Of a stretch of DNA of 56,722 nucleotides, positions 25,720-56,317 are shown in pieces. Each line of letters begins with the position of its first letter. Positions within the stretch are counted from its first letter, which is position 1. A model generated the notes under the pieces. It saw only the letters and a list, made by a program, of their open reading frames with translations. It was not told the origin of the DNA and searched no databases. A program made the translations under genes and the position numbers. The DNA comes from Candidatus Sulfotelmatobacter sp. GTDB lineage: Bacteria; Acidobacteriota; Terriglobia; Terriglobales; Acidobacteriaceae. The stretch covers positions 1 to 56,722 of the forward strand of contig JASHNU010000099.1 in assembly GCA_030041475.1 (NCBI GenBank), written 5' to 3'.

Positions 25720-26469
25720 CTAGTACTCGACATTAATTAGGTACAGCCCACCTGCGGGTGCGGTAGCTCCCGCCGCCGAGCGGTTCCGCGCCGCAAGAAT
25801 GCGCGCCAGATCTTCCGGTACGAGTGTTCCCTTGCCCACCAGAATAAAAGTGCCCACCAGATTGCGAACCATATGGTGCAGGAACCCGGAGCCGCTGACC
25901 GTATATACGAACTCATCGCCGTTCCGTTCCCACTTTGACGAAAAAATTGTGCGTACGTTCGACACCGTCTCCTCTCGCCCGCGCTCCGGATCCACCGCCG
26001 CAAAGGACGTGAAATCGTGTTCCCCCACAACCAGCTCCGCCGCACACTCCATCGTCGCCTCATCGAGCGGGTACGGGAAATGCCACACATACCGCGCCAG
26101 AAATGGCGGGCAGATCGGGGCACGATAGATCCGGTAACGATATGTCTTCGCCCGCGCCGAATGGCGCGCATGAAACTTCGCCGCCGCCTCGGTCACTTCC
26201 AGCACGCGCACCGCGGCGGGCAAAATGTCGTTCAGCGCCCGCAGGAAATTTTCCGTAGGAACCGAAGACTCCGTGACAAATGTCACTACCTGCGCCAGCG
26301 CATGAACGCCTGCGTCGGTCCGTCCTGAGGCCTGCGGCAGTACCTTTTCTCCTGTAATTCGTCCAATGGCTGAGGCGAGTGTGCCCTGCACGGTACTGGC
26401 GTCGGGCTGCACCTGCCAGCCGGAAAACTCGGCTCCATCGTAGGAAAGAATCAGTTTGAGATTGCGCAT
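25720..26469 (-). CDS. truA: tRNA pseudouridine(38-40) synthase
   Basis: 249 residues from ATG 26469; the frame is open 25 codons upstream but the conserved protein begins MRNLKLILSYDGAEFSGWQ. Catalytic Asp52 lies in SGRTDAGVHA, and GSGFLHHMVRNLVG is the C-terminal RNA-binding motif of TruA. The enzyme isomerises U38-U40 in the anticodon arm of many tRNAs in the cytoplasm. Length matches the family (about 250-270). It is the first gene before the CPBP protease (52 bases), likely co-transcribed. Confidence 0.95.
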   Translation of the reverse strand: MRNLKLILSYDGAEFSGWQVQPDASTVQGTLASAIGRITGEKVLPQASGRTDAGVHALAQVVTFVTESSVPTENFLRALNDILPAAVRVLEVTEAAAKFHARHSARAKTYRYRIYRAPICPPFLARYVWHFPYPLDEATMECAAELVVGEHDFTSFAAVDPERGREETVSNVRTIFSSKWERNGDEFVYTVSGSGFLHHMVRNLVGTFILVGKGTLVPEDLARILAARNRSAAGATAPAGGLYLINVEY

Positions 26470-42977: not shown

Positions 42978-44177
42978 CTAGCTGGTTCCGTGCGCCGGAG
43001 TTGCACCGGAGGCGGACAGAGAGACCGCGTCCGGCCACGGCGGCAGCAGTTTCACCAAAACCCAGAGAATCCCAAAGGGGAGAATCATAAGCACGATCGC
43101 GATCAGCAAACCTTCGCGCGTGGCAAAGCCCATCTTGTATGTCGTGTATCCCAGGAAACTCTTGGAGAAGAGCTGGCCGCCGATGACGACGTTCCAGCGC
43201 ATGGCAAAAATCCCAATCACGGTCAGACATCCGGCCAGGGCATAGATTCGTTTGCGGGCTGTTTCGGTCAGCTTCAGAATCTGAGTAAGGCCGAGGAGAG
43301 CGATCGGCGTCACGGTGCCTAAGAGAATTTGAACAATCACCTGCGACTTCCAGAGTCGCGTGTGCACCATGAAGTCCAGGCTGCGGAACGATTCATCGGC
43401 TTCGTAGATGCGCTGGAGAAGGTCGAGCATTTCGAGGCTGAAATCGATGACGAACGTGTACATCAGGTATTGCGCGATCTTATCCAGGCAACGGATATCG
43501 ATCTGTCGCCCCCGAAGCCTCGTGGAGACCATATAAAGCAACATGACCGCCGCGATGCCCGACACCATGGCGGAAAAAATGAAAACGATCGGCATCAGCG
43601 GCGAGGACCACCAGGGGTTGGCCTTAACCGATCCAAAGATGAACCCTACATATCCATGCAGCAAAAAGGCGGAAGGAATTCCAATCAGAGTAATGAAGTA
43701 GCCGAGCCTTTCGTCGATTCGCAGCGAGCGTTCGCTGATATTGCTCGAACCCAGCGTGAGCACGCGATAGCAAAGGCGCGCGAGACCGGTGGAAGTCTCG
43801 GACTTGAGCACGATGTCGCGCCGATAGTCGAGCCAGATTTCCAGCAGCAACACCGCCATCAGGTACCAGAGATAGACGAACCCGAACATCGCCATCGCCG
43901 AAGAGCGGTGTGGTGTAAGGTACATCTCCAACGACCGCTCGGGATGCCCCAGGTGCAACTGCAGCGGTAGAGGAGCAACTAACAGGAACGCCAGCGCCGT
44001 GAGCAACGCCAGGCGGTATGTCGGCTTCACGGCCTGCACGCGAAACACACGCTCCAAAGACGCCAGAATGAATGCCCCGGCTACGAGTCCCGTGATGAAG
44101 GGATACAGAACGATCAGAACGCTCCACTGGAGCTCCACTTCGTTCGGGTACATGAAACCTTCAACGGGAATTTGCAA
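42978..44177 (-). CDS. NrfD/HybB-type quinone-reactive membrane subunit
   Basis: 399 residues, about nine to ten membrane helices, length close to HybB (392). Starts MQIPVEGFMYPNEVELQWSV, then PFITGLVAGAFILASLE; QLHLGHPERSLEMYL resembles the quinone-side loop of NrfD/PsrC. These subunits carry electrons, and in some complexes protons, between quinone and an Fe-S partner at the outer face of the inner membrane. The partner here is the Fe-S protein encoded just upstream. A repeat element fills the 94-base gap between the two genes. Together with the tetraheme cytochrome they form a HybA/HybB- or Nrf-like quinone module. Confidence 0.88.
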   Translation of the reverse strand: MQIPVEGFMYPNEVELQWSVLIVLYPFITGLVAGAFILASLERVFRVQAVKPTYRLALLTALAFLLVAPLPLQLHLGHPERSLEMYLTPHRSSAMAMFGFVYLWYLMAVLLLEIWLDYRRDIVLKSETSTGLARLCYRVLTLGSSNISERSLRIDERLGYFITLIGIPSAFLLHGYVGFIFGSVKANPWWSSPLMPIVFIFSAMVSGIAAVMLLYMVSTRLRGRQIDIRCLDKIAQYLMYTFVIDFSLEMLDLLQRIYEADESFRSLDFMVHTRLWKSQVIVQILLGTVTPIALLGLTQILKLTETARKRIYALAGCLTVIGIFAMRWNVVIGGQLFSKSFLGYTTYKMGFATREGLLIAIVLMILPFGILWVLVKLLPPWPDAVSLSASGATPAHGTS

Positions 44178-44271: not shown

Positions 44272-45003
44272 CTATCGAACTGATCCATCCATGCCGTTGT
44301 AGAAAACTTTCGCGCCTGTGGCCATGTGAGGTTTCAGGATCTGCACCGTATGAGTCCGCAGGAACTCGTGGATCGGGTCCTTGGGATTCTTCAGGTCGGC
44401 GAGTTGCCGGGCCCCGGTGGGACAGACCTCGCAGCACGCAGTGGTCAACCCCTTGGTGATGCGGTGATAGCAGAGGGAGCACTTCTCGGCGGTATTCGTC
44501 TTCGGATTGATGAAGCGGCATCCGTAAGGGCAGGCCTGTACGCAATAGCGGCATCCAAGGCAATAATTCTTGTCGACCAGGACAACGCCATCTGGCGTGA
44601 CAAAGGTCGCACCCACTGGACAAACCTGAGTGCAGGGCGAATCCGCACAGTGGTTGCACAGCTTCGGGACGAAGAAATTCTTGCCGTCGCTGATTTCGTT
44701 TGGCGGGAAGCCCTGTTTTCCGCCATTCGGTGATTCCACCTCCGGCCTTTCAATCTTCCAGTCCGCAACGTGGTACCGCTCAATCCAGGTCCGGAAATAA
44801 CCGTCGGGAACGTCATTCTCCTCAGCGCACGCCCGCACACAACTGCCGCAGCCGATGCACTTGGGGATGTCAATGAGCATGCTCCACCAGTGCTCGCTGA
44901 GTTTGTAGTTGGGTGAAGCCTCAGGCGTACCCGCCAGGACGAATTTCCACGCAACGGCAGCGGCGGGCAATAGCACGAGGAGATGGCGACGGGTGATGTC
45001 CAT
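44272..45003 (-). CDS. Tat-exported four-cluster Fe-S protein (HybA/NrfC-like)
   Basis: 243 residues. A twin-arginine signal (ITRRHLLVLLPAAAVAW) exports it folded. Sixteen Cys in the ferredoxin pattern follow: CIGCGSCVRAC, CNHCADSPCTQVC, CLGCRYCVQACPYGC and CSLC with ACCEVCPTG, enough for four [4Fe-4S] clusters as in HybA, NrfC and DmsB. It ferries electrons between a periplasmic partner and the NrfD subunit. The ATG shares its first A with the stop codon of the tetraheme cytochrome gene (45003), a tight coupling. Physically it could accept electrons from the hydrogenase encoded 7 kb away or from the cytochrome. Confidence 0.92.
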   Translation of the reverse strand: MDITRRHLLVLLPAAAVAWKFVLAGTPEASPNYKLSEHWWSMLIDIPKCIGCGSCVRACAEENDVPDGYFRTWIERYHVADWKIERPEVESPNGGKQGFPPNEISDGKNFFVPKLCNHCADSPCTQVCPVGATFVTPDGVVLVDKNYCLGCRYCVQACPYGCRFINPKTNTAEKCSLCYHRITKGLTTACCEVCPTGARQLADLKNPKDPIHEFLRTHTVQILKPHMATGAKVFYNGMDGSVR

Positions 45004-45479
45004 TATTTCTTGCCTCCCGGCTTTTCGTCCTCGATCTTTGGCTTGTGCGGCTGATGGCAGGTGTCGCACGCGATTCCCCCCGAATGATCCGCGGTCACTA
45101 CCTGGGGAAAAGATTTCGGCTTGGCGCTGTTGGCTTCGTGGCAGCGGGCACACAGGACTGCCGTGTCGAGTTTGGCGGGCGTGAGGGCTGATGGATCGTC
45201 GGCGTGGCGGGCCAGGGCTCCGTGGCAGGCCTCGCAGGCGACGACCACATGTTTGCCCAGTTTCTTCTGCTCCGCTTCTTCGGTATGGCAGCCCTCGCAA
45301 ACGTCGTGGCCGGCAAAGGCAATCGGTCGTGCTGCGGTCTCGGCGATGGCCGCGCCGCGATAGTGACCGTATTGCCCAAAACTGGCGGGAATGACGGCAG
45401 CACGCAAGACAACGAAGGCAGCCACCGCGATCACGATGACGGCCGCCAGGCGGATGAGATGTTCTATGTCCTTAAACAC
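45003..45479 (-). CDS. Membrane-anchored tetraheme cytochrome c
   Basis: 158 residues from GTG 45479. The open frame extends to 45614, but that part covers a palindromic operator and has no signal. An N-terminal membrane anchor (LIRLAAVIVIAVAAFVVLR) is followed by four heme sites: CEGCH, CEACH, CARCH and CDTCH, with extra His available as axial ligands (GKHVVV, RHADD, ADHSGG). This resembles small cytochrome c7/NapC-like modules. First gene of the cytochrome-FeS-NrfD unit. It may pass electrons from the quinone module to periplasmic acceptors or the reverse. Confidence 0.85.
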   Translation of the reverse strand: MFKDIEHLIRLAAVIVIAVAAFVVLRAAVIPASFGQYGHYRGAAIAETAARPIAFAGHDVCEGCHTEEAEQKKLGKHVVVACEACHGALARHADDPSALTPAKLDTAVLCARCHEANSAKPKSFPQVVTADHSGGIACDTCHQPHKPKIEDEKPGGKK

Positions 45480-45587
45480 GGTCGTTTTCCCGCGCCTGAT
45501 CCTCCCGCGTCTGATCCGGGAGCGACTCGCCGGAAAAGAGGCGATATTCTTCCTTACGTTGGATTGCGTCCCGGAACGATGATTGAA

Positions 45588-45605
45588 GTCACAGGCGCCT
45601 GTGAC
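45588..45605. promoter_or_regulatory. 18-bp perfect palindrome upstream of cytochrome operon
   Basis: GTCACAGGCGCCTGTGAC reads the same on both strands. It contains inverted TCACA and TGTGA half-sites with a 4-base centre and overlaps the CRP/FNR-like site at 45600-45615, giving three half-sites in a row. Centre about 117 bases before the cytochrome start. Confidence 0.6.
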
Positions 45606-45615
45606 ATGGATCACT
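45600..45615. promoter_or_regulatory. CRP/FNR-family-type site, cytochrome-FeS-NrfD operon
   Basis: TGTGA-CATGGA-TCACT: half-sites in the CRP spacing (N6), 9 of 10 consensus bases. It lies in the leader of the minus-strand tetraheme cytochrome operon. See the companion sites at 50222-50237 and 52089-52104. Confidence 0.55.
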
Positions 45616-45727
45616 ACAGAAGATCACTACACGGAGGGGCGCCAGCCGTGGGAACAGGCAGCGTTACGCACGGTCAGCATCCAATCTGCCCTAGAGCAGG
45701 GCGTTGACGCTTGAGTATAACCTCGGT

Positions 45728-46939
45728 TTATTGCCTTCCGATCACAGCACGGATGCGATCAAATGCCCAGTCAATTTCTTCCCGCGTAATGGTGAGCGGA
45801 GGCGCAATGCGCAGGACCTTGTCGTGTGTTTCCTTGCACAGCACACCCTCTTCTTTCAGGGCTTCGCAATAGGGACGCGCGGGGCTGTGCAACTCGATCC
45901 CGATCCAGAGTCCTTTGCCACGCACTTCTTTCAGGTCGGGACTATTCAGGGTTCGCAATCGACTCAGGAAATAGTTTCCTAAATCTGCAGAGCGCTCGAC
46001 CAATCTCTCATCCACCAAAACTCGCAGCGCCGTTCTTGCCACCGCACATGCCAAGGGATTACCGCCAAATGTGCTGCCATGATCACCCGGTCCGAAAACA
46101 CCGAGAACTTCCTTCCCGGCAAGGACAGCGGATACGGGGTAGAACCCTCCTGAAAGCGCCTTGCCCACGATGAGAACATCCGGCCTCACGTTCTCATGCA
46201 TGCAGGCGAAGAGCTTGCCGGTTCTGCCCAGGCCAGACTGGATCTCGTCGCACATCAACAGAACGCCGTGCTCCCGGCAGATGGCTGCTGCTTCGCTGAG
46301 AAATCCGGCTGGCGGAATAATGATTCCTGCTTCACCCTGGATCGGTTCGACCAGGAATGCGCAAGTATTCGGCGTGATCGCGTTGCGCAGCGCTGCAGCG
46401 TCGCCAAAAGGAATGACCGTGAAGCCGGGTGTGAATGGTCCGAAACCATCGCGATACTGCTCGTCACTCGAGAAACTGACGATCGTAACCGTCCGCCCGT
46501 GAAAATTGTTGGCGCAGACGATGATTTCCGCTTTGCCCTCCGGAATCTCCTTAACCTTATATCCCCATTTCCGCGCGGCCTTTACGGCGGTCTCAACGGC
46601 CTCCGCGCCCGAGTTCATGGGCAGCACCATGTCGAATCCGGTCAGCTCGTGCAATTCCCGGCAGAGCAACGGCAACTGATCATTGCGGAAGGCCCGCGAA
46701 GTCAGCGTCACCTTGAAAGCCTGCTGCGTCATTGCGTGCAGAATCCGTGGATGGCAGTGCCCCTGGTTGACCGCCGAGTAGGCGGCGAGGCAGTCGAGGT
46801 ACCGTTTGCCCTCGACGTCGTAAACCCAGACACCTTCGGCGCGTTCAATCACAACGTCGAGCGGGCGGTAGTTGTGCGCACCATATTGATCTTCCAACGC
46901 TATGAGTTCGGCAGAGCGGGTCATCTCCAGCACGGACAT
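45728..46939 (-). CDS. rocD: Ornithine aminotransferase
   Basis: 403 residues of class III PLP aminotransferase. The Tyr/Asn-rich N-terminal motif [12 protein letters not shown] is diagnostic for ornithine delta-aminotransferase as against acetylornithine aminotransferase. Further motifs: [31 protein letters not shown] and the Schiff-base Lys260 in [11 protein letters not shown]. It turns ornithine plus 2-oxoglutarate into glutamate semialdehyde plus glutamate. Last gene of the argF-arcC-carbamoyltransferase-rocD unit (25-base gap). In this company it removes the ornithine produced when citrulline is split. Confidence 0.93.
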
Positions 46940-46964
46940 TAGTTTTCTCCTCGGTCTTAGATAG

Positions 46965-47954
46965 TTATTCCTGATCTCTTTCCAGCAGCATGGTCAGAAG
47001 AGCCATGCGTACGTACAGGCCATTCGCGGCCTGTTTGAAATAAAGCGCACGTGGATCGTCGTCCACGGTTTTGTCCAGTTCCACGGTTCGCGGCAGCGGA
47101 TGCAGAATCAACGCGTCCGACTTCATCTTCGCCAGGACTCCGGAATTGATGGCGTAACGTTGCAGTTCTTTCCGATCCCGAACCCGTTCCGGCCGGATGC
47201 GCGTCTGGTAGACAACATCCACTTCCCGGATCACGCGCTCAATGTCCGCTTCCAGTTCGTAGCGAACCCCGTGCGCGTCCAGATAATCGAGAATGTCGGA
47301 CTTCATCTGTAATTCATGCGGGCTGACGAAGAAGATTTTCACCCTGTCGAACTTCGCCAGCAGATAAGCCAGGGATCGCGCTGTGCGGCCCTTGTCCAAC
47401 TCTCCCACGATCGCGACGCTCAGGCCGACCAGCGGGCGTTCGCGATAGATCGTGTACAGATCCAGCAGGGCTTGGGTGGGATGCTGCCCGCCTTCGCCGT
47501 CTCCGGCGTTAATGACCGGGACCGGCGACACTTGGGCAGCACGCTTGGCGCCTCCGGCCTCAGGATGACGCACAACAATAACGTCGGCATAGCTGCCAAT
47601 GATCCGGATCGAGTCCTCAATTTGTTCCGCTTCCACCTCCGACGAGAACGCGCCTGCATGCTCAGTGGAGAGCACTCTGCCGCCCAGCCGCTGCATCGCA
47701 GCCTCAAAGCAGAAGCGGGTGCGAGTGGATGGCCGGTAGAAAAGTGTGGCCAGAATTCTGTTCTGGTAGTCGAGGGTGCCTCCCCGCGCCACGACGCGCT
47801 CCATCCCTCGCGAGCGGTTAAACAACTCCATGAGCAAGGGCAGCGTAAGTTGTTGCGATTCGATCAGATGATGCAGCCTGGTTGCATCGTGCTTCGGTTC
47901 AGTGTTCGGAGAGCGTGCAGCTCCCAGCTTTTCCGATGTGAGCATGCTTGACAT
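46965..47954 (-). CDS. Aspartate-carbamoyltransferase-like enzyme with altered acceptor site
   Basis: 329 residues. The carbamoyl-phosphate site is intact: STRTR (76-80), Arg129 (VVRHP), His158 (GGQHPTQ), Arg190 (KGRTARS) and ILHPLPR. By offsets of 24 and 23 to E. coli PyrB, the mobile-loop Lys84 is replaced by Glu108 (SSEVEAE where a Lys-Gly-Glu is normal) and Gln231 by Arg254 (TRIRPER). Both residues help hold aspartate in the standard enzyme, so the carbamoyl acceptor may differ. The gene is three bases behind arcC, with AGGAGG inside the arcC end, hence a catabolic setting rather than with pyrimidine genes. Alternatively a diverged true ATCase. Start ATG 47954. Confidence 0.82.
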
Positions 47955-47957
47955 TTG

Positions 47958-48953
47958 TTAGCGTCCTCCTGCCGACACACCAAGGTCCACCCGCAGTTTT
48001 TGGGTGACCAATTCGGCGTCGGGAACAATATGCGTGCCGGCTCGTCCGCCAACCGCCTCGCACAAGTGCTCGTACGACGTTATGACCACTTCCTTGCCAC
48101 CGGTTTTCAGGAAGTGCAGGGCCGATTCAATCTTGGGCCCCATGTTTCCTGGCGGGAATTGGCCCGCCTCGAGGTGCTGTTCGAGTTCGGAAGCGGTTAC
48201 CCGCATCAGAGGGCGCTGAGTCGGCTTCTTGTAGTCGAGATACACGAAATCGGTGTCCGTGGAGATCGCGAAGATTTCAACACCAAGTTGCGAAGCCAGC
48301 AGAGCGGAAGCGCGGTCTTTATCAATGACCGCCTCGACCCCATGAAGGTCGCCCTTTTCTCGCACTACGGGAATTCCGCCTCCGCCGCAGGCCACGACCA
48401 ACACTCCCTCCGCCATCAACGAACGAATCACCTCGAACTCGACGATCTCCACCGGCTCCGGGGACGGAACGACGCGGCGGTAACCCCGCGCGGCATCCTC
48501 CACGATCTGCCATCCCAGTTGCCTGTGGCGCTCCTCCGCCTGAACTCGCGAATAAAAAGGTCCTATCGGCTTGGTCGGATGTTTCATCGCGTCATCATTG
48601 GCCGACACAATGCTCTGGGTCACCAGGCTCACAACCGGGATGTGCAGGCCCGCTGTCGCCAACTCGTCGTGCAGGGCTTGCGCGAGGATGTATCCAATCT
48701 CGCCCTGGCTGCAAGCACCGCACACATCGAGTGTCTGCCCTGGCGCCTGGTCGGCAGCCCGCTCTGACCGCAGCAACTGCGCTCCCACCTGCGGCCCGTT
48801 GCCATGGGTTACCACCAGGTGATAGCCCTCGCGAACCAGTCCGACGATCGCCGCCGCCGTCCGCCGTGCGTTGGCCATCTGCTCGGCAACAGTTCCCTTT
48901 TCCCCGGCCCGCACCAGAGAGTTGCCACCAACGGCGATAAGCATGGATTTCAA
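47958..48953 (-). CDS. arcC: Carbamate kinase
   Basis: 331 residues of the amino-acid kinase fold: AVGGNSLV at the N-terminus, THGNGPQVG, CGACSQGEIGYIL, ACGGGGIPVV, DKDRASALLA and GNMGPKIESA, all typical of ArcC. It makes ATP from carbamoyl phosphate and ADP, releasing ammonia and CO2. Placed 24 bases behind the ornithine carbamoyltransferase and 3 before the ATCase-like gene, so it is the energy-yielding centre of the unit. No arginine deiminase gene (arcA) is present in the window. Confidence 0.95.
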   Translation of the reverse strand: MKSMLIAVGGNSLVRAGEKGTVAEQMANARRTAAAIVGLVREGYHLVVTHGNGPQVGAQLLRSERAADQAPGQTLDVCGACSQGEIGYILAQALHDELATAGLHIPVVSLVTQSIVSANDDAMKHPTKPIGPFYSRVQAEERHRQLGWQIVEDAARGYRRVVPSPEPVEIVEFEVIRSLMAEGVLVVACGGGGIPVVREKGDLHGVEAVIDKDRASALLASQLGVEIFAISTDTDFVYLDYKKPTQRPLMRVTASELEQHLEAGQFPPGNMGPKIESALHFLKTGGKEVVITSYEHLCEAVGGRAGTHIVPDAELVTQKLRVDLGVSAGGR

Positions 48954-48977
48954 AATAGTCCTCGGTTCTTCCCCACT

Positions 48978-49961
48978 TTAAATTTCGAAATCGCTGAACA
49001 CCGGCGCCATTTCCCGGAGTGGCGCCGTCTCCGGCACTTCGCGGTACTGCATCAGTTCCAGCAGGATCGCTTTCTGCGTGTGCAGCCGATTCTCCGCCTG
49101 CTGATAAACCACCGAGTGCGCCGAATCAATCACCTCATCCGTGACTTCGTCGCCACGATGCGCCGGCAAACAATGCATGAACAGCGCATCGTACCTGGCA
49201 TGGCGGAACAGACCAGCATTCACCTGATACGGAGCAAAGACCTTTCGGCGCTCTTCTGCCTCCGCCTCGTGGCCCATGCTCGCCCACACGTCGGTATAAA
49301 TGACGTCGGCGTCTGCCGCCGCAGCGACCGGATCGTATGTCAGCGTGCACGTGCCGCCGGTCTGTGCGCCCCGTCTCAGCGCCCATTCCACCGCCTCTGC
49401 TACGGGTCCATATCCCGGAGGAGTCGCGACCCATACGTGTGCTCCCAGTTGTGCGCCAGCAAACATCAGCGAGTGGCAGACGTTGTTGCCATCCCCGACA
49501 AACGCCACTTTCAGCCCTGCGACCTCGCCTTTCAGTTCCTGGATCGTCAGGTAATCCGCCATGGCCTGGCAGGGATGGCTGTAGTCCGTCAGCCCATTAA
49601 TCACTGGGATGCTGGCATACTCCGCCATGCGCTCGACGATGTGATGCGCGTAGGTGCGGATCATGATGGCCTGCACCATGCGCTCCAGGTTCTTGCCCAC
49701 GTCATAGACAGACTCGCGCTTGCCCAGATTGATTTCGGCATTCGAAAGATAGAGAGAAAACCCGCCCAACTGCTGAATGCCAACGTCAAACGACACGCGC
49801 GTACGCAGCGACGGCTTCTCGAAGATCATGGCCAGCGTTTTTCCCTTGAGCACTCCGGCGTGCGCCCAAGGGTGAGCTTTCATCTCGCGGGCCAGATCGA
49901 GCAGATACCGGATTTCATCCGGCGAAAAGTCCTTGATGGAAACAAAATTATGACGGCCCAT
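48978..49961 (-). CDS. argF: Ornithine carbamoyltransferase
   Basis: 327 residues from ATG 49961 (MGRHNFVSIKDF), preceded by GAAGTGAGG; the frame is open 24 codons further but lacks homology. Carbamoyl-phosphate site SLRTR (51-55), HPCQAMADYL, the ornithine-binding TDVWASMG and HCLPAHRG. Forward it makes citrulline; followed by carbamate kinase and ornithine aminotransferase it more likely runs in reverse, splitting citrulline into ornithine and carbamoyl phosphate. First gene of the four-gene unit. A GTGA-N6-TCAC palindrome lies about 260 bases upstream. Confidence 0.93.
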   Translation of the reverse strand: MGRHNFVSIKDFSPDEIRYLLDLAREMKAHPWAHAGVLKGKTLAMIFEKPSLRTRVSFDVGIQQLGGFSLYLSNAEINLGKRESVYDVGKNLERMVQAIMIRTYAHHIVERMAEYASIPVINGLTDYSHPCQAMADYLTIQELKGEVAGLKVAFVGDGNNVCHSLMFAGAQLGAHVWVATPPGYGPVAEAVEWALRRGAQTGGTCTLTYDPVAAAADADVIYTDVWASMGHEAEAEERRKVFAPYQVNAGLFRHARYDALFMHCLPAHRGDEVTDEVIDSAHSVVYQQAENRLHTQKAILLELMQYREVPETAPLREMAPVFSDFEI

Positions 49962-50749
49962 GGTGCGCCTCACTTCTCCGGGCAGGTTCGAATCGGCGCC
50001 CGGCTTGCAACTCAATGGGATTCTTTTTGCCACGCGCTAACGCGCAGAGGATGCGAAGGATGTCGACTTGCTCAAATTCGTAGTAGGTAGGTAAAAACGG
50101 CTGGTGAATGTTGCGGAATACAACTTCACGGACGGTCTGCTGGTCTTGCTGCCGCTCGCTGTAGCCTGCTGAGGACACGGCAACACCAACTTCAATGTTC
50201 CCTTTTCTGATCCCTGGCGGCAGTGAAAGGCGTCACTGCCCGCGGTGATGGCGGTCACCCACTGTTTGGCTGCGTTAGAAATGGCGAGAAATCTAATCTT
50301 TGCAATCCTCGGACTCAGAATGGTCGATGCGGAGAGGGGCCGATCACCACCAGTAACAAAAGTGACGGCTATTGGCTTCGTTTGGCACCGATCCCGCGAC
50401 GGGTCAGGCGATCACTACATGCGAATGGACCGACCCCTCGCCTCGCTCCTGTTACCGCCCCCGGCAGGCACTCCGGTTGAAAGACGAGTTGAAGTGCACG
50501 TTCGACGTCGTCGCTCGCAAGCGGGAATAATCGCCGACTGAGGTCACCTTCTTTCCGGAAGCGCCTGATTTCACCAGTTACGTCCGAAGGGAGATCACTA
50601 GTTTCAGTTAGTGATATCGGGTTAGTGCATCTGGGGACTTGTGGCTCTGTTAAATCTCTATAAAGTCTGATATGCGCCACGAAAGCTACTCTACCTCCCT
50701 CCCCCGGCTTGGCGGCGTACTCTTCATACTTTTCAAAGGAGGGCAACAA
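49962..50749. other. Long intergenic region between argF and secreted Cys-rich gene
   Basis: About 790 bases carrying divergent upstream regions. It contains the perfect palindrome at 50219-50240. I find no well-supported gene: short open frames (for example 49948-50178 on minus, 76 codons, GTG start) lack ribosome sites and recognisable similarity. A TATAAAG near 50658 may be part of the promoter of the 50750 gene. Confidence 0.5.
50219..50240. promoter_or_regulatory. Perfect palindrome with CRP/FNR spacing, argF upstream region
   Basis: GGCAGTGA-AAGGCG-TCACTGCC: eight-base arms that are exact complements across six bases, with the core GTGA-N6-TCAC at 50223-50236. About 260 bases before argF and 510 before the secreted protein gene. 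Confidence 0.6.
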
Positions 50750-51334
50750 ATGAACAGGACCACAATGCTTGTGGTATGTGCATTGGCCTTCGCCCTGTGT
50801 GCGGGGCCGGCGCTGGCAGCGACTACTCAGACACCGCCACCTGCTGACACTCTGAAGGTCGATTATTTTGCCAATGCCAATACCGCTGGGGCTCCCGACG
50901 CTACTGTGCGCATCACCAACCCAAACAGCGGTGGTGGCAACGTCTGCGCCAGCATCTTCGTGTTCGATGCGGCCCAGGAGATGACCGAGTGCTGCAGCTG
51001 TCTGGAAACTCCGGATGGTCTGCAGACCTTCTCGGTAAACGCGAACTTGACCAACAACCCGCTGACCGGCGTCATTCTCAGTGGCGGCCTGATCAAGATC
51101 GTTTCGACCACCCCGGTCGACGGGACTTGCCCCCTGCCGACTACGTTTACGCCAGTGGCAGCAGTGCGGGCGTGGGCGACGCACATCCAGAACAGCAGCT
51201 ACAGCATCACTGAGACGGCTTCGCAAGACGCCACTCTCAGCACGGCTGAAGTCGGCAAACTGGAAAATGAGTGCAGCGCAATCAACATCGACGGCAGCGG
51301 CTCGGGTGTTTGCAGCTGTGGTACCGGCAAGTAA
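50750..51334 (+). CDS. Secreted Cys-rich hypothetical protein
   Basis: 194 residues from ATG 50750, which has AAGGAGG upstream and opens a signal peptide (LVVCALAFALCAGPALA). The mature part is Thr/Ser/Asn-rich and beta-like, with Cys at NVCASIF, TECCSCLE, DGTCPLP, NECSAIN and GVCSCGTGK; the paired Cys suggest several disulfides or metal sites. No family recognised. It lies between the carbamoyl-phosphate operon and the hydrogenase operon, each with a putative shared operator, and ends before a perfect 12-bp hairpin. Confidence 0.75.
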   Translation: MNRTTMLVVCALAFALCAGPALAATTQTPPPADTLKVDYFANANTAGAPDATVRITNPNSGGGNVCASIFVFDAAQEMTECCSCLETPDGLQTFSVNANLTNNPLTGVILSGGLIKIVSTTPVDGTCPLPTTFTPVAAVRAWATHIQNSSYSITETASQDATLSTAEVGKLENECSAINIDGSGSGVCSCGTGK

Positions 51335-51355
51335 TTCACAGGATCCCAACCGGCC

Positions 51356-51384
51356 CTCGTCGCCGATGTTCAATCGGCGACGAG
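51356..51384 (+). terminator. Perfect 12-bp hairpin after secreted gene
   Basis: CTCGTCGCCGAT (51356-51367), loop GTTCA, ATCGGCGACGAG (51373-51384), starting 22 bases after the stop. Stem is perfect, but there is no T-run, so it may protect the 3' end instead of terminating. Confidence 0.6.
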
Positions 51385-51595
51385 ACGCGGGGAATAGGGC
51401 TTACATTAGCAACCGTGAAACTCAACCCGATCATCGTTTGACGAGGAAACGGGTGTGACAGGTCGCCCGTAATTGTCCCAGGATTTTCCAACTCACTACG
51501 AGCGTTTTTCCTTTGAGGGGGGAGACGACAGCAGGGGTCACTAAATTCCAAGGGGGAGGGAGAACAGGGCTCCTGCTGCCTTCCCATCTGATCAA

Positions 51596-51630
51596 CAGCG
51601 GACATCCCGAAGGAGGTCCGCTGCTTTTTT
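51596..51630 (+). terminator. Intrinsic terminator without upstream protein gene
   Basis: CAGCGGAC (51596-51603) pairs with GTCCGCTG (51616-51623) over a 12-base loop, followed by C and six T (51625-51630). A textbook intrinsic terminator 262 bases after the nearest stop codon. Confidence 0.75.
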
Positions 51631-52088
51631 GTGCCGGCCAACACCCGATAACACCGACTTCCGCGCAAGCGGGAGCGTGCCCAATGGAACACGTGCAAGC
51701 TCCTTCATCTCGAGCGGGTCCGTTCGGTTCGACGGGATGTTGAGATTTCTTTGATCGAAGCCTGGCCCCGTTCCGCCTGGGTCCTTAGTACAGAGTTCAT
51801 GTCTGCGGCCGCGATCCGAGCATCTCGGTGCATTTACCAGAGTCTCATCCATATCGGAAGAGAGTGTCTGTCCTGCTTCTTGGAGTGACCGCGAGACAGA
51901 GATTCGTATGGTGACATCTTGGCTTCGAACACGTCGTGCGAAGAGTTGAGTGCACAGGAATCGCACATCCGGCGGAATGCAGTTCCAGCGCTCCTATTAC
52001 TGACTTGTCGTTTATGCCTTTGCCGTAGGCCACCGACTGCTGGATTCAGGAGCCGAGCAACTCTTTCTCGCTCAGGATCACATCGTAC

Positions 52089-52104
52089 TGTGATGAACGT
52101 CACA
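52089..52104. promoter_or_regulatory. Consensus CRP/FNR-type operator of hydrogenase operon
   Basis: TGTGA-TGAACG-TCACA, a perfect match to the CRP consensus. A further TCACA (52078-52082) makes an overlapping inverted pair with the left half-site. Centre at 52096.5, about 118 bases before ATG 52215. If it acts like a class II activator site, transcription would start near 52138 (inference). Confidence 0.65.
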
Positions 52105-52214
52105 TCCTCCCAAAAGTGACTAGTGGTACTTAACCGCAATCCGCATTCATGACGTGGGGTGTGGTTCAGGTCTTCGCGGACCAAGAACCGCATATTCCCG
52201 GGAAGGATGAAACG

Positions 52215-53306
52215 ATGATCCCGCCGAATGAGACATTCTATGGGGCCCTGCAGAAAAAAGGCGTAACCCGCCGCCGGTTTCTTAAATTCTGCACCGCCAT
52301 GACTGCGACTCTGGCCCTCCCCCCGCGTTACGTGGCCCAGGTCGCTTCCGCGCTGGAGAAAACGAAGAAGCCGGTGCTGGTTTGGCTGCAGTTCCAAGAC
52401 TGCGCCGGAAACTCCGAGGCCATCCTGCGGTCAAGCCATCCCTCGGTGCTGGAGGTCGTCCTCGACCTGCTTTCGTGGGAGTACCACGAGATCATCATGG
52501 CCGGAGCCGGACATCAGGCGGAGGCTGCGCTGCAACGCGTGGTCAAAGAAGAGAAAGGCAAGTATCTGGCGGTTGTGGAAGGGGCCATTCCGCTAGCCGA
52601 TGACGGAGTGTACTGCACGGTTGCGGGGAAGACGGCGATCTCCATCGCCAAGGAAGTCTGCACCAACGCGGCTGCAACGATCGCGGCTGGAGCTTGCGCC
52701 TGGTATGGCGGCCTTGTGGCAGCGTCGCCGAATCCGACCGGGGCCGTAGGAATTTCAGAAGCGGTTCCGGAGGCCAAGGTAGTAAATCTGGGCGGATGCC
52801 CGCAGAATCCGGCGAATACGGCGGCGGTGCTGGTGCACTACCTGACTTTCGGCGAACTGCCGGCGCTGGATCAGTACAACCGGCCGCTGTTTGCCTACGG
52901 ACGTGTCATTCACGACCAGTGCGAACGGCGCGCGCATTACGATGCCGGCCGCTACGTGCAGGAATGGGGCGACGAAGGACACCGCCGGGGCTGGTGCCTC
53001 TACAAGATGGGCTGCAAGGGCCCGCAGACAACGTTCAACTGCCCATCTGTGCGCTTTAACGACAGCACGAGTTGGCCCGTGAAGGCGGGGCATGGCTGCG
53101 TCGGCTGTGGCGGATACAACTTCTGGGAGACCAAATCTCCGTTCTACGAGCGGCTGCCGAATGTGCCCGGGTTTGGAGCCGATGTCAGCGCCGGGAAGAT
53201 CGGTATCGGGATCACGGCCGCAGTGGCGGGAGCGACGGTTGTGCATGGCATCGCGAGCGCGGTTCGCGACAGGATGCGGACTACGCCGCCACCCGAGAAA
53301 ATCTAG
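52215..53306 (+). CDS. [NiFe] hydrogenase small subunit, Tat-exported, unusual proximal cluster
   Basis: 363 residues from ATG 52215 (GGAAGG upstream); the frame is open to 52149. A twin-arginine signal (VTRRRFLKF, 17-25) exports it with the large subunit. Distal cluster ligands His233, Cys236, Cys261 and Cys267 and medial ligands Cys276, Cys295 and Cys298 with Pro288 ([3Fe-4S] type) are normal. At the proximal cluster, Cys63, Cys161 and Cys195 are present but the second Cys of CxxC is Asn66 (QDCAGNSEA). A C-terminal helix (VHGIASAV) anchors it beside cytochrome b as in HyaA. It wires H2 electrons to the membrane. No extra Cys for a 4Fe-3S cluster (position 120 is Gly). Confidence 0.93.
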   Translation: MIPPNETFYGALQKKGVTRRRFLKFCTAMTATLALPPRYVAQVASALEKTKKPVLVWLQFQDCAGNSEAILRSSHPSVLEVVLDLLSWEYHEIIMAGAGHQAEAALQRVVKEEKGKYLAVVEGAIPLADDGVYCTVAGKTAISIAKEVCTNAAATIAAGACAWYGGLVAASPNPTGAVGISEAVPEAKVVNLGGCPQNPANTAAVLVHYLTFGELPALDQYNRPLFAYGRVIHDQCERRAHYDAGRYVQEWGDEGHRRGWCLYKMGCKGPQTTFNCPSVRFNDSTSWPVKAGHGCVGCGGYNFWETKSPFYERLPNVPGFGADVSAGKIGIGITAAVAGATVVHGIASAVRDRMRTTPPPEKI

Positions 53307-53327: not shown

Positions 53328-55040
53328 ATGGCACGCATCGTAGTCGATCCAGTGACGCGTATTGAAGGCCATTTGCGCATTGAAGCTGAAGTGAACGGCG
53401 GCGCGGTTACCGATGCCTGGAGCTCGGGCACGATGTTTCGCGGGATCGAGCTGATCCTGAAAGGGCGCGATCCGCGCGAGGCATGGGTCTGGACGCAGCG
53501 CATCTGCGGTGTCTGCACCACCGTGCATGCGCTGACTTCAGTGCGGGCTGTCGAAGACGCACTCGGTATCGAGGTGCCGGAAAACGCGAATCTGATCCGC
53601 AACATCATTGGCTCCAGCCAGTACGTGCAGGACCATGTGATTCATTTCTACCACCTGCACGCGCTGGACTGGGTGGATGTGACGCTCGCGCTCAAGGCCG
53701 ACCCGGCCAAGACTTCGCAATTGGCGGAGTCTATTTCTCCCTGGCCGAAGTCAAGCAAGAACTACTTCAAGGCAATTCAGGACAAGGTGAAGGCGCTGGT
53801 GGAGAGCAAGCAGCTCAGCCTGTTCAGCAGCGGATATTGGGGGCATCCGGCTTATCATCTGCCGCCTGAGGCGAACCTGCTGGCGGTCGCGCACTACATT
53901 GAGGCGCTGGAGTTTCAGAAAGACTACATTCGCATTCACGCCGTGCTCGGCGGGAAGAACCCGCACCTGCAGACTTATCTCGTCGGCGGAATGTCGACTT
54001 CGATGGATCCGGATGAGCCGGGAGCGACCATCAATCCGGAGCGGATCACATTCCTGACTGAGCTGGCGGCGAAGGCGCAGGCGTTCGTGGATCAGGTCTA
54101 CGTACCGGATGTGCTGGCGGTCGCCGCTTTCTACCGCGACTGGTTCGGGCACGGCGAGGGGCTGGGCAATTTCCTCTCTTATGGCGACTACCCCCAAGGC
54201 GGCGTAAAAGATCCGGCGCGGTTCTACCTGCAGCGTGGAGCAATCTTCGGTCACGATCTGTCGAAGGTGCATCCGGTCGATCCCGCAAATGTGTCGGAGT
54301 ACGTCACGCACTCCTGGTATGAATATGGCGACGGCGACCAGAACGGCAAGAACCCGTATCAGGGCGAGACGAAGCCGCAGTACACCGGGCCCAAGCCCCC
54401 GTTTGAGCACCTGGATGTGGACAAGAAATATTCGTGGCTTAAGGCGCCGCGGTATCAGGACCATCCCATGGAAGTTGGCCCGCTATCGCGCATGCTCGTC
54501 GCCTATGCCTCGGGGCATCCGGACGTGAAGCCAGTCGTGGATGCAGTGCTGGCGAAATTGAATGCTCCCGCGACGGCCTTGTTCTCGACCCTGGGCCGCA
54601 TCGCCGCGCGGGCCATCGAAGCAAAAGTGATGGCGGGCCAGGTGGTGAAGTGGGTGGCGGAATTGGGCGACAAGCTCGGACACGGCGACTTGCGGGTTCA
54701 CAACGGCGAAAAGTGGGACCCGGATACTTGGCCGAAACAGGCGCAGGGCTGGGGGTTCCACGAGGCGCCGCGGGGATCGCTCGGCCACTGGGTCGAGATT
54801 GAAGACCAGAAGATCAAGAACTACCAGTGCGTGGTACCGACGACGTGGAACGCCGGGCCGCGGGACGGCAAAGGTCAGCGCGGCGCATACGAGGCGGCTT
54901 TGTTGAAGACGCCGGTCGCGGATCCGGAGCGCCCGGTGGAGATCTTGCGGACGGTGCATTCCTTCGATCCGTGCCTGGCTTGTGCGGTGCATGTAGTTGA
55001 TGCGCGGGGGAGAAAATACACACCAGTAACGGTGAGATAA
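53328..55040 (+). CDS. [NiFe] hydrogenase large subunit, group 1
   Basis: 570 residues from ATG 53328 with GGAGGAG upstream. The Ni-Fe ligands are complete: RICGVC (Cys60, Cys63) and DPCLACAVH (Cys549, Cys552), with the proton-relay Glu in RIEGH near the start. The 15-residue tail after His555 is the part removed by the maturation protease (encoded at 55820) once nickel is inserted. Length and motifs match group 1 membrane-bound uptake hydrogenases that oxidise H2 in the periplasm. Second gene of the unit, 21 bases after the small subunit. The HypA-F proteins that build the Fe(CN)2CO site are not in the window. Confidence 0.96.
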   Translation: MARIVVDPVTRIEGHLRIEAEVNGGAVTDAWSSGTMFRGIELILKGRDPREAWVWTQRICGVCTTVHALTSVRAVEDALGIEVPENANLIRNIIGSSQYVQDHVIHFYHLHALDWVDVTLALKADPAKTSQLAESISPWPKSSKNYFKAIQDKVKALVESKQLSLFSSGYWGHPAYHLPPEANLLAVAHYIEALEFQKDYIRIHAVLGGKNPHLQTYLVGGMSTSMDPDEPGATINPERITFLTELAAKAQAFVDQVYVPDVLAVAAFYRDWFGHGEGLGNFLSYGDYPQGGVKDPARFYLQRGAIFGHDLSKVHPVDPANVSEYVTHSWYEYGDGDQNGKNPYQGETKPQYTGPKPPFEHLDVDKKYSWLKAPRYQDHPMEVGPLSRMLVAYASGHPDVKPVVDAVLAKLNAPATALFSTLGRIAARAIEAKVMAGQVVKWVAELGDKLGHGDLRVHNGEKWDPDTWPKQAQGWGFHEAPRGSLGHWVEIEDQKIKNYQCVVPTTWNAGPRDGKGQRGAYEAALLKTPVADPERPVEILRTVHSFDPCLACAVHVVDARGRKYTPVTVR

Positions 55041-55076: not shown

Positions 55077-55814
55077 ATGGGCTCATTGGCACCAGGACAA
55101 CATGCGTGGAGCGAGGCGCACAGACCCTACCCCACTACGTTGCCAGTGCGTACCTACGTGTGGGAGCTGCCGGTGCGGGTTTCGCACTGGTTCATTGTTC
55201 TGTCCATTGCCGTGCTCTCTTTCACCGGCTATTACATGCACAATCCGTTCATCGTGGCGACCAGCCGCACTCAGTTTCTGATGGCGAGGATTCGCTTCAT
55301 CCATGAGATAGCAGCGGCGGTGTTCATCAGCGCCTTTATCCTGCGAATGTACTGGTTCTTCGTGGGCAATGACTGGTCGAGCTGGCGATCGTTCTGGCCC
55401 ATTCATAAGCGGCAGTGGCGAGGCATGGGACAAATGGTCGCCTACTACAGCTTTCTCAAAAAAGACCTTGTGCATCACGTGGGTCACAATGCACTGGCCG
55501 CGGTCACTTATCTGCTGATGTTCACCTTCATGCTGCTTGAGATCATTACCGGTCTCACGCTGTATACCTGGGTGCGTGGTTCCTGGTTGCTGGGATGGCT
55601 GTTCCGCTGGATCCCGGGAGTAATCGATATCCAGCATTTGCGGCTGTTGCACTTCTGCATCATGTTCACATTTTTCGCGTTCGTGATTCACCATGTGTAC
55701 AGCGCTGTGCTGGTTTCGTGGGAAGAACGCAACGGGCTGATCGAAAGCATCTTCACGGGATACAAATTCGTCCCCCGCCACGAGCTGGAAGAAGATGCGA
55801 AGCTGCCGAAGTGA
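55077..55814 (+). CDS. Hydrogenase cytochrome b subunit (HyaC-like)
   Basis: 245 residues with AAGGAGG before ATG 55077. Four membrane helices with His pairs for two b hemes (VSHWFIVLS, RFIHEIAAA, HNALAAVTYLL, LLHFCIMFTFFAFVIHHVY). It takes electrons from the small subunit to the quinone pool. Same family as HyaC/HupC. Third gene of the unit, overlapping or abutting the protease start (GTGA at 55811). It means this hydrogenase has its own quinone route independent of the NrfD module. Confidence 0.92.
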   Translation: MGSLAPGQHAWSEAHRPYPTTLPVRTYVWELPVRVSHWFIVLSIAVLSFTGYYMHNPFIVATSRTQFLMARIRFIHEIAAAVFISAFILRMYWFFVGNDWSSWRSFWPIHKRQWRGMGQMVAYYSFLKKDLVHHVGHNALAAVTYLLMFTFMLLEIITGLTLYTWVRGSWLLGWLFRWIPGVIDIQHLRLLHFCIMFTFFAFVIHHVYSAVLVSWEERNGLIESIFTGYKFVPRHELEEDAKLPK

Positions 55815-55819
55815 GCGAC

Positions 55820-56317
55820 ATGAGGGCTGCAACGGCCAAGACAGTAGTACTCGGGCTGGGCAACATACTGCACGGCGACGATGGTGCGGGAGCGCAGGCC
55901 ATCAGCCGGTTGCGCGCAGATCCAAGAGTGCCCACTGATGTGTCGCTCGTGGAGGGGGGAACGCTGGGCCTCGAGTTGCTTCCCCATGTCTGGGACTGCT
56001 CTCGCCTGATCGTGATCGATGCGGTGGATGTCGGCGAGCCGGCCGGCACGCTTGTCCGGATGTCTGGGGAGGAACTTAATTCCCTGCCGGGCAACAGCAC
56101 CGTCCACCAGCTGGGAGTCTCTGATCTGCTGGTCGCGTTGCGAATGCTGGCCGAGCGGCAGCCGGAGGTAGTGCTCCTCGGCGTGCAGCCACTGAGCACT
56201 GATTGGTCCTGCGAGTTGTCCCCTCCGGTTGCGGCCGCCACTGACTTCTTGGTGGAGGCCACCCTGCGGGAGTTGCAGCCGCTAGCAGAGCCTAACGTTG
56301 TTGACGCCAATAGTTAA
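55820..56317 (+). CDS. Hydrogenase maturation endopeptidase (HyaD/HybD family)
   Basis: 165 residues from ATG 55820; GTG 55811, which overlaps the cytochrome b stop by four bases, is the alternative. Nickel-checking residues: LGLGNILHGDDG (Asp near 16-20), IDAVD and TVHQLG with His. This cytoplasmic protease clips the C-terminal tail of the large subunit after Ni insertion. The cognate cut site is DPCLACAVH. Fourth gene in the unit. Confidence 0.93.
   Translation: MRAATAKTVVLGLGNILHGDDGAGAQAISRLRADPRVPTDVSLVEGGTLGLELLPHVWDCSRLIVIDAVDVGEPAGTLVRMSGEELNSLPGNSTVHQLGVSDLLVALRMLAERQPEVVLLGVQPLSTDWSCELSPPVAAATDFLVEATLRELQPLAEPNVVDANS

Follow-up and report, generated by a model that had tools for sequence, protein, structure and literature searches.

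A paired GTGA-N6-TCAC operator ahead of hydrogenase, carbamoyl-phosphate, and tetraheme cytochrome genes in Candidatus Sulfotelmatobacter, and its candidate Crp/Fnr-type regulator

A 56,722-nucleotide stretch of Candidatus Sulfotelmatobacter sp. DNA (contig JASHNU010000099.1; this whole stretch is referred to as the window) carries the palindrome GTGA-N6-TCAC in front of three units: a quinone module (tetraheme cytochrome, iron-sulfur (FeS) subunit, and NrfD-type subunit), an argF-arcC carbamoyl-phosphate operon, and a [NiFe] hydrogenase. The question raised by the locus is whether these copies mark a single regulon tying H2 oxidation to carbamoyl-phosphate catabolism, as a preliminary description of the sequence proposed. 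One part of this proposal, a Crp/Fnr-type regulator common to the three units, is well supported by the sequence; the specific tie is not, as there are dozens of candidate targets. With a probability of about 0.7, the motif is the operator of an autoregulated Crp/Fnr activator (of the type of three proteins designated L019, L018, and L017), which would bind as two abutting dimers and is probably responsive to redox state or oxygen.

The three copies are present as described (45601-45614, 50223-50236, and 52090-52103), all of them outside genes. The hydrogenase copy is a full consensus (TGTGATGAACGTCACA, 52089-52104), and the argF copy lies in a 22-base region with perfect 8-base arms (GGCAGTGA/TCACTGCC, 50219-50240). 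The window holds seven copies, however, and not three; the mean in shuffled sequences was 0.72 and none of 100 shuffles reached seven, so the abundance of the motif is not a matter of chance. A fourth intergenic copy (50245-50258) starts 22 base pairs (bp) from the argF copy, while those at 26273, 33733, and 36018 are inside genes. The genome as a whole (4.63 Mb, 112 contigs) contains 163 copies, against 39 of a reversed-pattern control, and this rate alone already predicts about two copies per window.

The real core of the motif is GTGAY-N4-RTCAC, with Y at base 5 and R at base 10. Its genomic copies are intergenic in 78 of 87 cases, as compared to 16% noncoding DNA over the stretches examined, so the motif is not equally common inside genes, a possibility that the preliminary description had raised against itself. 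Three of the nine non-intergenic core sites count as genic only through their own GTG, called as a start codon. Non-core copies are intergenic in 8 of 33 examined cases (76 exist in the genome), and the spacer class GTGAR-N4-YTCAC is rare, with 2 of 13 examined copies intergenic; the reversed pattern occurred seven times in the first 64 sequences, twice in intergenic DNA. The 87 core sites, all of which were examined, comprise 37 copies of GTGAT-N4-ATCAC (0 in controls) and 50 others counted by hand. Genic and intergenic calls came from a small gene finder based on codon usage, applied to the window and to 83 genome stretches. Palindromic, intergenic, and located upstream of its targets, the motif has the features of a Crp/Fnr-family operator.

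The main feature of the leaders was overlooked in the preliminary description: in all three, the site is one of two dimer sites spaced by 22 bp (TCAC-N8-GTGA-N6-TCAC). Scans for single palindromes miss such paired operators. The operators and the -10-like hexamers downstream of them are as follows:

45579..45614, minus strand: tetraheme operator GTGA-N6-TCAC-N8-GTGA-N6-TCAT, with a strong site at 45601-45614 and a weak gene-side site at 45579-45592
45551..45556, minus strand: putative -10 hexamer TAAGGA of the tetraheme unit, gene-side dimer at about -41.5
50223..50258, minus strand: argF operator, two full dimer sites 22 bp apart (50223-50236 and 50245-50258)
50195..50200, minus strand: putative -10 hexamer GAACAT of the argF unit, gene-side dimer at about -41.5
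52078..52103, plus strand: hydrogenase operator TCAC-N8-GTGA-N6-TCAC, with a full dimer site at 52090-52103 and an outer half-site at 52078-52081
52127..52132, plus strand: putative -10 hexamer TACTTA of the hydrogenase unit, which puts the dimer centre at about -42.5

The strong site may take either place, being gene-side at the hydrogenase and upstream at the tetraheme operon. Around the 64 intergenic core sites of the first 64 sequences, an inverted outer half-site occurs 31 times at exactly N8 and 0 to 5 times at each of the other offsets from 0 to 39, and same-direction peaks at N18 and N27 (six each) correspond to a complete second site at a distance of 22 or 31 bp, respectively. The three-half-site operator TCAC-N8-GTGAY-N4-RTCAC, counted on both strands, is found 35 times in this genome, 21 times in G084 (same genus), and 36 times in G073 (same family), with controls of 0 in each; the remaining 116 of 119 phylum genomes contain it 0 to 4 times each. 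With gaps of 3-25 allowed, N8 accounts for 36/47 occurrences in G073, 21/29 in G084, and 27/41 in G119 (reversed controls 3, 2, and 2; tallied by hand, with G139 not counted). Relative to the gene, an outer half-site with at most one mismatch is on the right of the core at 15 sites, on the left at 14, on both sides at 10, and on neither at 4 (43 sites). Its occurrence on either side led to the rejection of a promoter element on one fixed side. The outer half-site columns are invariant in the hydrogenase, tetraheme, and argF leader sets (the last consisting of the four leaders with the 22-bp pair), whereas other columns average 0.45-0.55 homozygosity.

A lack of conservation in orthologous leaders, which the preliminary description had regarded as damaging, was not observed within the genus. 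The exact hydrogenase arrangement TCAC-N8-GTGA-N6-TCAC is present in 7/7 same-genus orthologues with the start present (88-100% identity; an eighth match, a C-terminal fragment, is outside this count), and all four half-sites of the tetraheme leader are kept in 13/13 (88-100% identity). The double argF site at 22 bp is found in 4/5 close orthologues (82-100% identity, this genome included), the fifth having two sites 31 bp apart.

The placement of the operator relative to the promoter is similarly regular. Measured from the GTGA of the core site nearest the gene, a NANNNT -10-like hexamer peaks at offsets 36 and 37 (24/95 and 19/95; mean over 76 offsets 5.05, standard deviation (SD) 3.4). With a half-site on the gene side, the peak is at offset 58, i.e., 36+22 (17/44; mean 2.49, SD 2.66), and the next highest value, 12 at offset 18, falls inside the site itself. 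The rows are partly dependent, as some sites serve two genes or neighbour one another. The hexamer is mostly of a TA type at offset 36 or 37 in the hydrogenase orthologues, and of a TAT type in the 12 other tetraheme orthologues. Given a -10 hexamer at -12 to -7, these peaks put the centre of the gene-side dimer at -41.5 and that of the other dimer at -63.5. Transcription starts of the three units are predicted near 52139 (plus strand, hydrogenase), 45544 (minus strand, tetraheme), and 50188 (minus strand, argF). A dimer near -41.5 with the -10 element at a fixed distance (peaks 36-37 and 58) is the arrangement of a class II activator promoter; an excerpt of PMC5957442 gives -41.5 as the class II position and also describes a class I position.

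As the preliminary description noted, no CRP/FNR gene is located in the window: the genome contains eight PF00027 genes, none of them on this contig (C73). Three of the eight (L017, L018, and L019) constitute one subfamily, and GTGA-N6-TCAC copies are present upstream of L018, of L019, and in the separate L016 region. L018 and L019, the two proteins scanned, match PF00027, PF13545, and PF00325 over the cut-offs, i.e., a cyclic-nucleotide-binding fold and a Crp-type helix-turn-helix. Among NCBIfam models, L019 matches those for FtrB and FNR best, with every score below cut-off; its score with the CRP model is 48.7 bits (cut-off 266). A site lies at most 420 bp upstream of 69 of 73 L019-type genes, 66 of them with the exact outer half-site, as compared to 0/73 in a 430-bp intragenic control window. 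The 73 genes are from named GTDB genomes, mostly metagenome-assembled genomes (MAGs) of Candidatus Sulfotelmatobacter and other Acidobacteriota, and they are not 73 independent cases, since some are paralogues from one MAG. Among the 119 phylum genomes, the operator is found in 9/13 with an L019 relative and 13/106 without one (Fisher p 2.3e-5).

The residues C13, C16, C25, and C64, as well as R201, E202, and R206, are invariant in 19 members (39-89% identical to L019; this alignment omits G074 and G061, two of twelve phylum relatives). In a set of 14 sequences that includes these two, C25 is conserved in 13/14 and the other six residues in 14/14. R-E-x3-R is the CRP recognition code for GTGA, and these CRP-type residues (19/19 and 14/14) open helix 201-213 in a structure model of L019 (mean predicted local distance difference test score 86). 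The recognition helix is nearly identical in the three paralogues. L018 and L019 do not have four cysteines at the FNR positions: they contain an N-terminal CxxC-x8-C and a Gly at the place of FNR C122, which is a Cys in L017 and in 7/14 members overall.

FNR contains N-terminal CxxC..C cysteines and recognizes TTGAT half-sites. The L019 type resembles FNR, FnrN, and ANR in its N-terminal CxxC..C cysteines and in the predicted control of electron-transfer genes; it differs in that the fourth conserved cysteine is C64 (LCxG) and the recognition helix is CRP-type (RETxxR), which would explain GTGA instead of TTGAT half-sites. Tandem CRP promoters are known, and have reportedly been treated by Tebbutt in 2002 (a reference listed in PMC3335776). 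The GTGA/TCAC half-sites with N6 are those of CRP. The dimer centre near -41.5 is shared with E. coli class II CRP/FNR promoters (an excerpt of PMC5957442); unlike there, the operator has a second dimer site directly adjoining the first, at 22 bp (about -63.5). In the class III CRP example of the same excerpt, deoC, protection is seen near -40 and -90. Each half of the pairing of H2 with carbamoyl phosphate has a Crp/Fnr precedent. In Rhizobium, hydrogenase accessory genes are transcribed from an FnrN-type promoter (part of PMC3534401), while oxygen-sensing Crp/Fnr proteins of the ArcR/FLP/FlpS group drive arginine deiminase operons without oxygen (part of PMC5039431), and ArcR binds a Crp-like motif (part of PMC2883068). 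The present system is like the ArcR group in the probable Crp/Fnr control of a carbamoyl-phosphate operon and unlike it in the absence of arcA from the annotated operon, the paired operator, the four conserved cysteines of the candidate regulator, and the genome-wide regulon. What is unusual is the paired geometry and the cysteine set. No recognizable literature on this operator or regulator in Acidobacteriota was found in a search that left most subscription journals outside its coverage, and absence from print is not claimed.

These features suggest the following mechanism. A standard operator would consist of two dimer sites with centres 22 bp (two helical turns) apart, one strong (GTGAY-N4-RTCAC) and the other strong or weakened. 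An L019-type protein would occupy the gene-side site at about -41.5, the class II activator position, with a second dimer abutting, and probably contacting it, at about -63.5. It would bind upstream of its own genes and at dozens of promoters, many of them for energy metabolism, including those of both [NiFe] hydrogenases found, the tetraheme/FeS/NrfD module, and the argF-arcC operon. Oxygen or redox sensing via a metal or Fe-S centre is the most likely input because of the four conserved cysteines. More tentatively, and at somewhat less than even odds, the L019 type may represent an undescribed subfamily of Crp/Fnr sensors that combines a four-cysteine set of its own with a CRP-type DNA code, acts in uncultured Acidobacteriota as an autoregulated master switch for energy metabolism, and activates as cooperative touching dimers at -41.5/-63.5. 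With two dimers placed side by side in this way, if true, the RNA polymerase alpha subunit would have little space for its usual upstream contact, and the CRP/FNR textbook would gain a new, cooperative promoter geometry. The lineage is known here only from MAGs; the analysis offers it a candidate master regulator that can be tested, along with an exact operator. A joint response is predicted for two hydrogenases, ferredoxin-linked oxidoreductases, cytochromes, and carbamoyl-phosphate catabolism.

The regulon is genome-wide, H2 oxidation and carbamoyl-phosphate catabolism being two members among dozens. Genes beside core sites (17 neighbours, chosen by eye and scanned against Pfam) encode pyruvate and 2-oxoacid:ferredoxin oxidoreductases, 2-hydroxyglutaryl-CoA dehydratase, a corrinoid protein, ferredoxin-type subunits, cytochromes c, three universal stress proteins, CoA ligases, and a radical SAM protein. 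All 21 operators of G084 fall in intergenic DNA. Of 27 neighbouring proteins there, 14 have a relative beside a site in this genome, in some cases only through shared membership of one large family. For G073, 22 of the 27 operators examined (out of 36) are intergenic, and 4 of 22 neighbouring proteins have such a relative. A private link between H2 and carbamoyl phosphate was rejected in view of the 163 copies and 78 intergenic core sites; dozens of promoters are candidate targets, those of the hydrogenase and argF units among them.

Several observations weigh against the explanation by an autoregulated activator. The paired leaders are not conserved in orthologues outside the genus: the tetraheme pair is absent in three of them (G146, G148, and G156), the hydrogenase pair in the order-level orthologue G147, and the argF pair, at that position, in 0/7 relatives of 69-73% identity. 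G148 has two single sites only at its tetraheme locus, one of them 528 bp upstream of the FeS gene, and G139, among the argF relatives, has three sites 338-646 bp upstream; the paired tetraheme leader is also absent from a 48% paralogue of G136. The pair is common and not universal, since 45 of 78 intergenic core sites are without an exact outer half-site; 40 of the first 64 have one with at most one mismatch. The hexamer of the hydrogenase in the window fits -42.5, and when the -10 score of the 44-row set is weighted, offsets located within the second site reach values as high as that of offset 58. Four of the 73 regulator genes are without a site, the three-half-site operator is missing in 4 of the 13 genomes with an L019 relative (G009, G061, G112, and G114), and C25 is missing in G074. 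Some neighbours of core sites are not anaerobic genes (citrate synthase, transketolase, and ABC1 kinase). Finally, activation rather than repression is suggested by position alone.

With three paralogous candidate regulators in the genome, a single regulon is unproven. The paralogues might read overlapping but different subsets of sites, so that the three units are not co-regulated despite similar operators. The presence of an upstream operator at two of the three L019-type genes and their nearly identical recognition helices are consistent with this scenario, as is the differing pair order (the gene-side site is strong at the hydrogenase and weak at the tetraheme operon), although on balance it is unlikely. 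Still less probable is a cyclic AMP-responsive CRP acting on single sites, with the outer half-site a side effect of site overlap or of promoter sequence. The site does resemble the E. coli CRP consensus TGTGAT-N4-ATCACA, the recognition helix has the CRP-type R, E, and R, and many core sites lack an exact outer half-site; however, the outer half-site is found on either side of the core, mainly at one spacing, and is conserved while spacers vary, and the regulators with the site upstream bear cysteines and, in the case of L019, match FtrB and FNR models best, below cut-off. Rex, an NADH-sensing repressor on TTGTGAA-W4-TTCACAA (which also reads GTGA-N6-TCAC) with derepression at high NADH, is very improbable, judging from the sites. 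In its favour, TGTGA-N6-TCACA-like motifs ahead of anaerobic genes are shared by Rex and the Crp/Fnr protein ArcR in S. aureus (part of PMC2883068). However, the Rex sequence of S. aureus carries A and T at bases 5 and 10, respectively, which the operator described here does not, and the wider class GTGAR-N4-YTCAC is seldom intergenic (2/13 examined versus 78/87 for the core). The pairing at 22 bp, the -41.5 position, and the location ahead of Crp/Fnr genes (69/73) suit a Crp/Fnr activator.

The hydrogenase unit is encoded on the plus strand:

52218..53306, plus strand: [NiFe] hydrogenase small subunit (PF14720, PF01058; TIGR00391, 431.8 bits, cut-off 179.5)
53328..55040, plus strand: [NiFe] hydrogenase large subunit (best NCBIfam match NF007550, 648.7 bits, below the cut-off of 1101)
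55146..55814, plus strand: hydrogenase b-type cytochrome subunit (TIGR02125, 144.4 bits, cut-off 121.5)
55820..56317, plus strand: hydrogenase maturation protease (TIGR00072, 127.2 bits, cut-off 47.45)

A further in-frame ATG of the small subunit is located at 52149. A second [NiFe] hydrogenase small subunit of this genome, 49% identical (loci L083 and L265), is preceded by a three-half-site operator at C50:24950-24975, about 360 bp upstream. For this second hydrogenase (46-50% identical), a site is found at most 420 bp upstream in 13/14 same-genus loci, with the exact outer half-site in 10/14.

The other two units are encoded on the minus strand:

48978..49961, minus strand: ornithine carbamoyltransferase argF (TIGR00658, 406.6 bits, cut-off 280.85)
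47958..48944, minus strand: carbamate kinase arcC (TIGR00746, 366.7 bits, cut-off 358.25)
46965..47945, minus strand: second carbamoyltransferase, aspartate type (TIGR00670, 279.4 bits, cut-off 236.95)
45728..46939, minus strand: ornithine aminotransferase, rocD type (TIGR01885, 544.3 bits, cut-off 378.4)
45003..45479, minus strand: tetraheme c-type cytochrome, first gene of the quinone module (PF14522, PF14537; scanned as 45003-45482)
44272..45003, minus strand: 4Fe-4S ferredoxin-type subunit (PF13247)
42978..44177, minus strand: NrfD-type membrane subunit (PF03916)

The operon at 45728-49961 combines ornithine carbamoyltransferase, carbamate kinase, an aspartate-type carbamoyltransferase, and ornithine aminotransferase and does not include an arginine deiminase; it is possibly involved in the catabolism of citrulline or carbamoyl-aspartate. 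A second ornithine carbamoyltransferase (49% identical) is encoded at C105. Between the argF and hydrogenase units, positions 50751-51334 encode a small, secreted-looking, Cys-containing protein without a Pfam match, followed by a hairpin-like stretch and a T run near 51600.

Elsewhere in the genome, two GTGAA-type sites in the L016 region (C33:8318 and 8415) are located upstream of a different Crp-type gene (helix RETVTTQ) and a divergent membrane-protein gene, and might form the operator of another regulator. An L019-type regulator with 81% identity (L221) is found, together with the operator, on a contig filed under Ignavibacteria that is probably a mis-binned Acidobacteriota contig.

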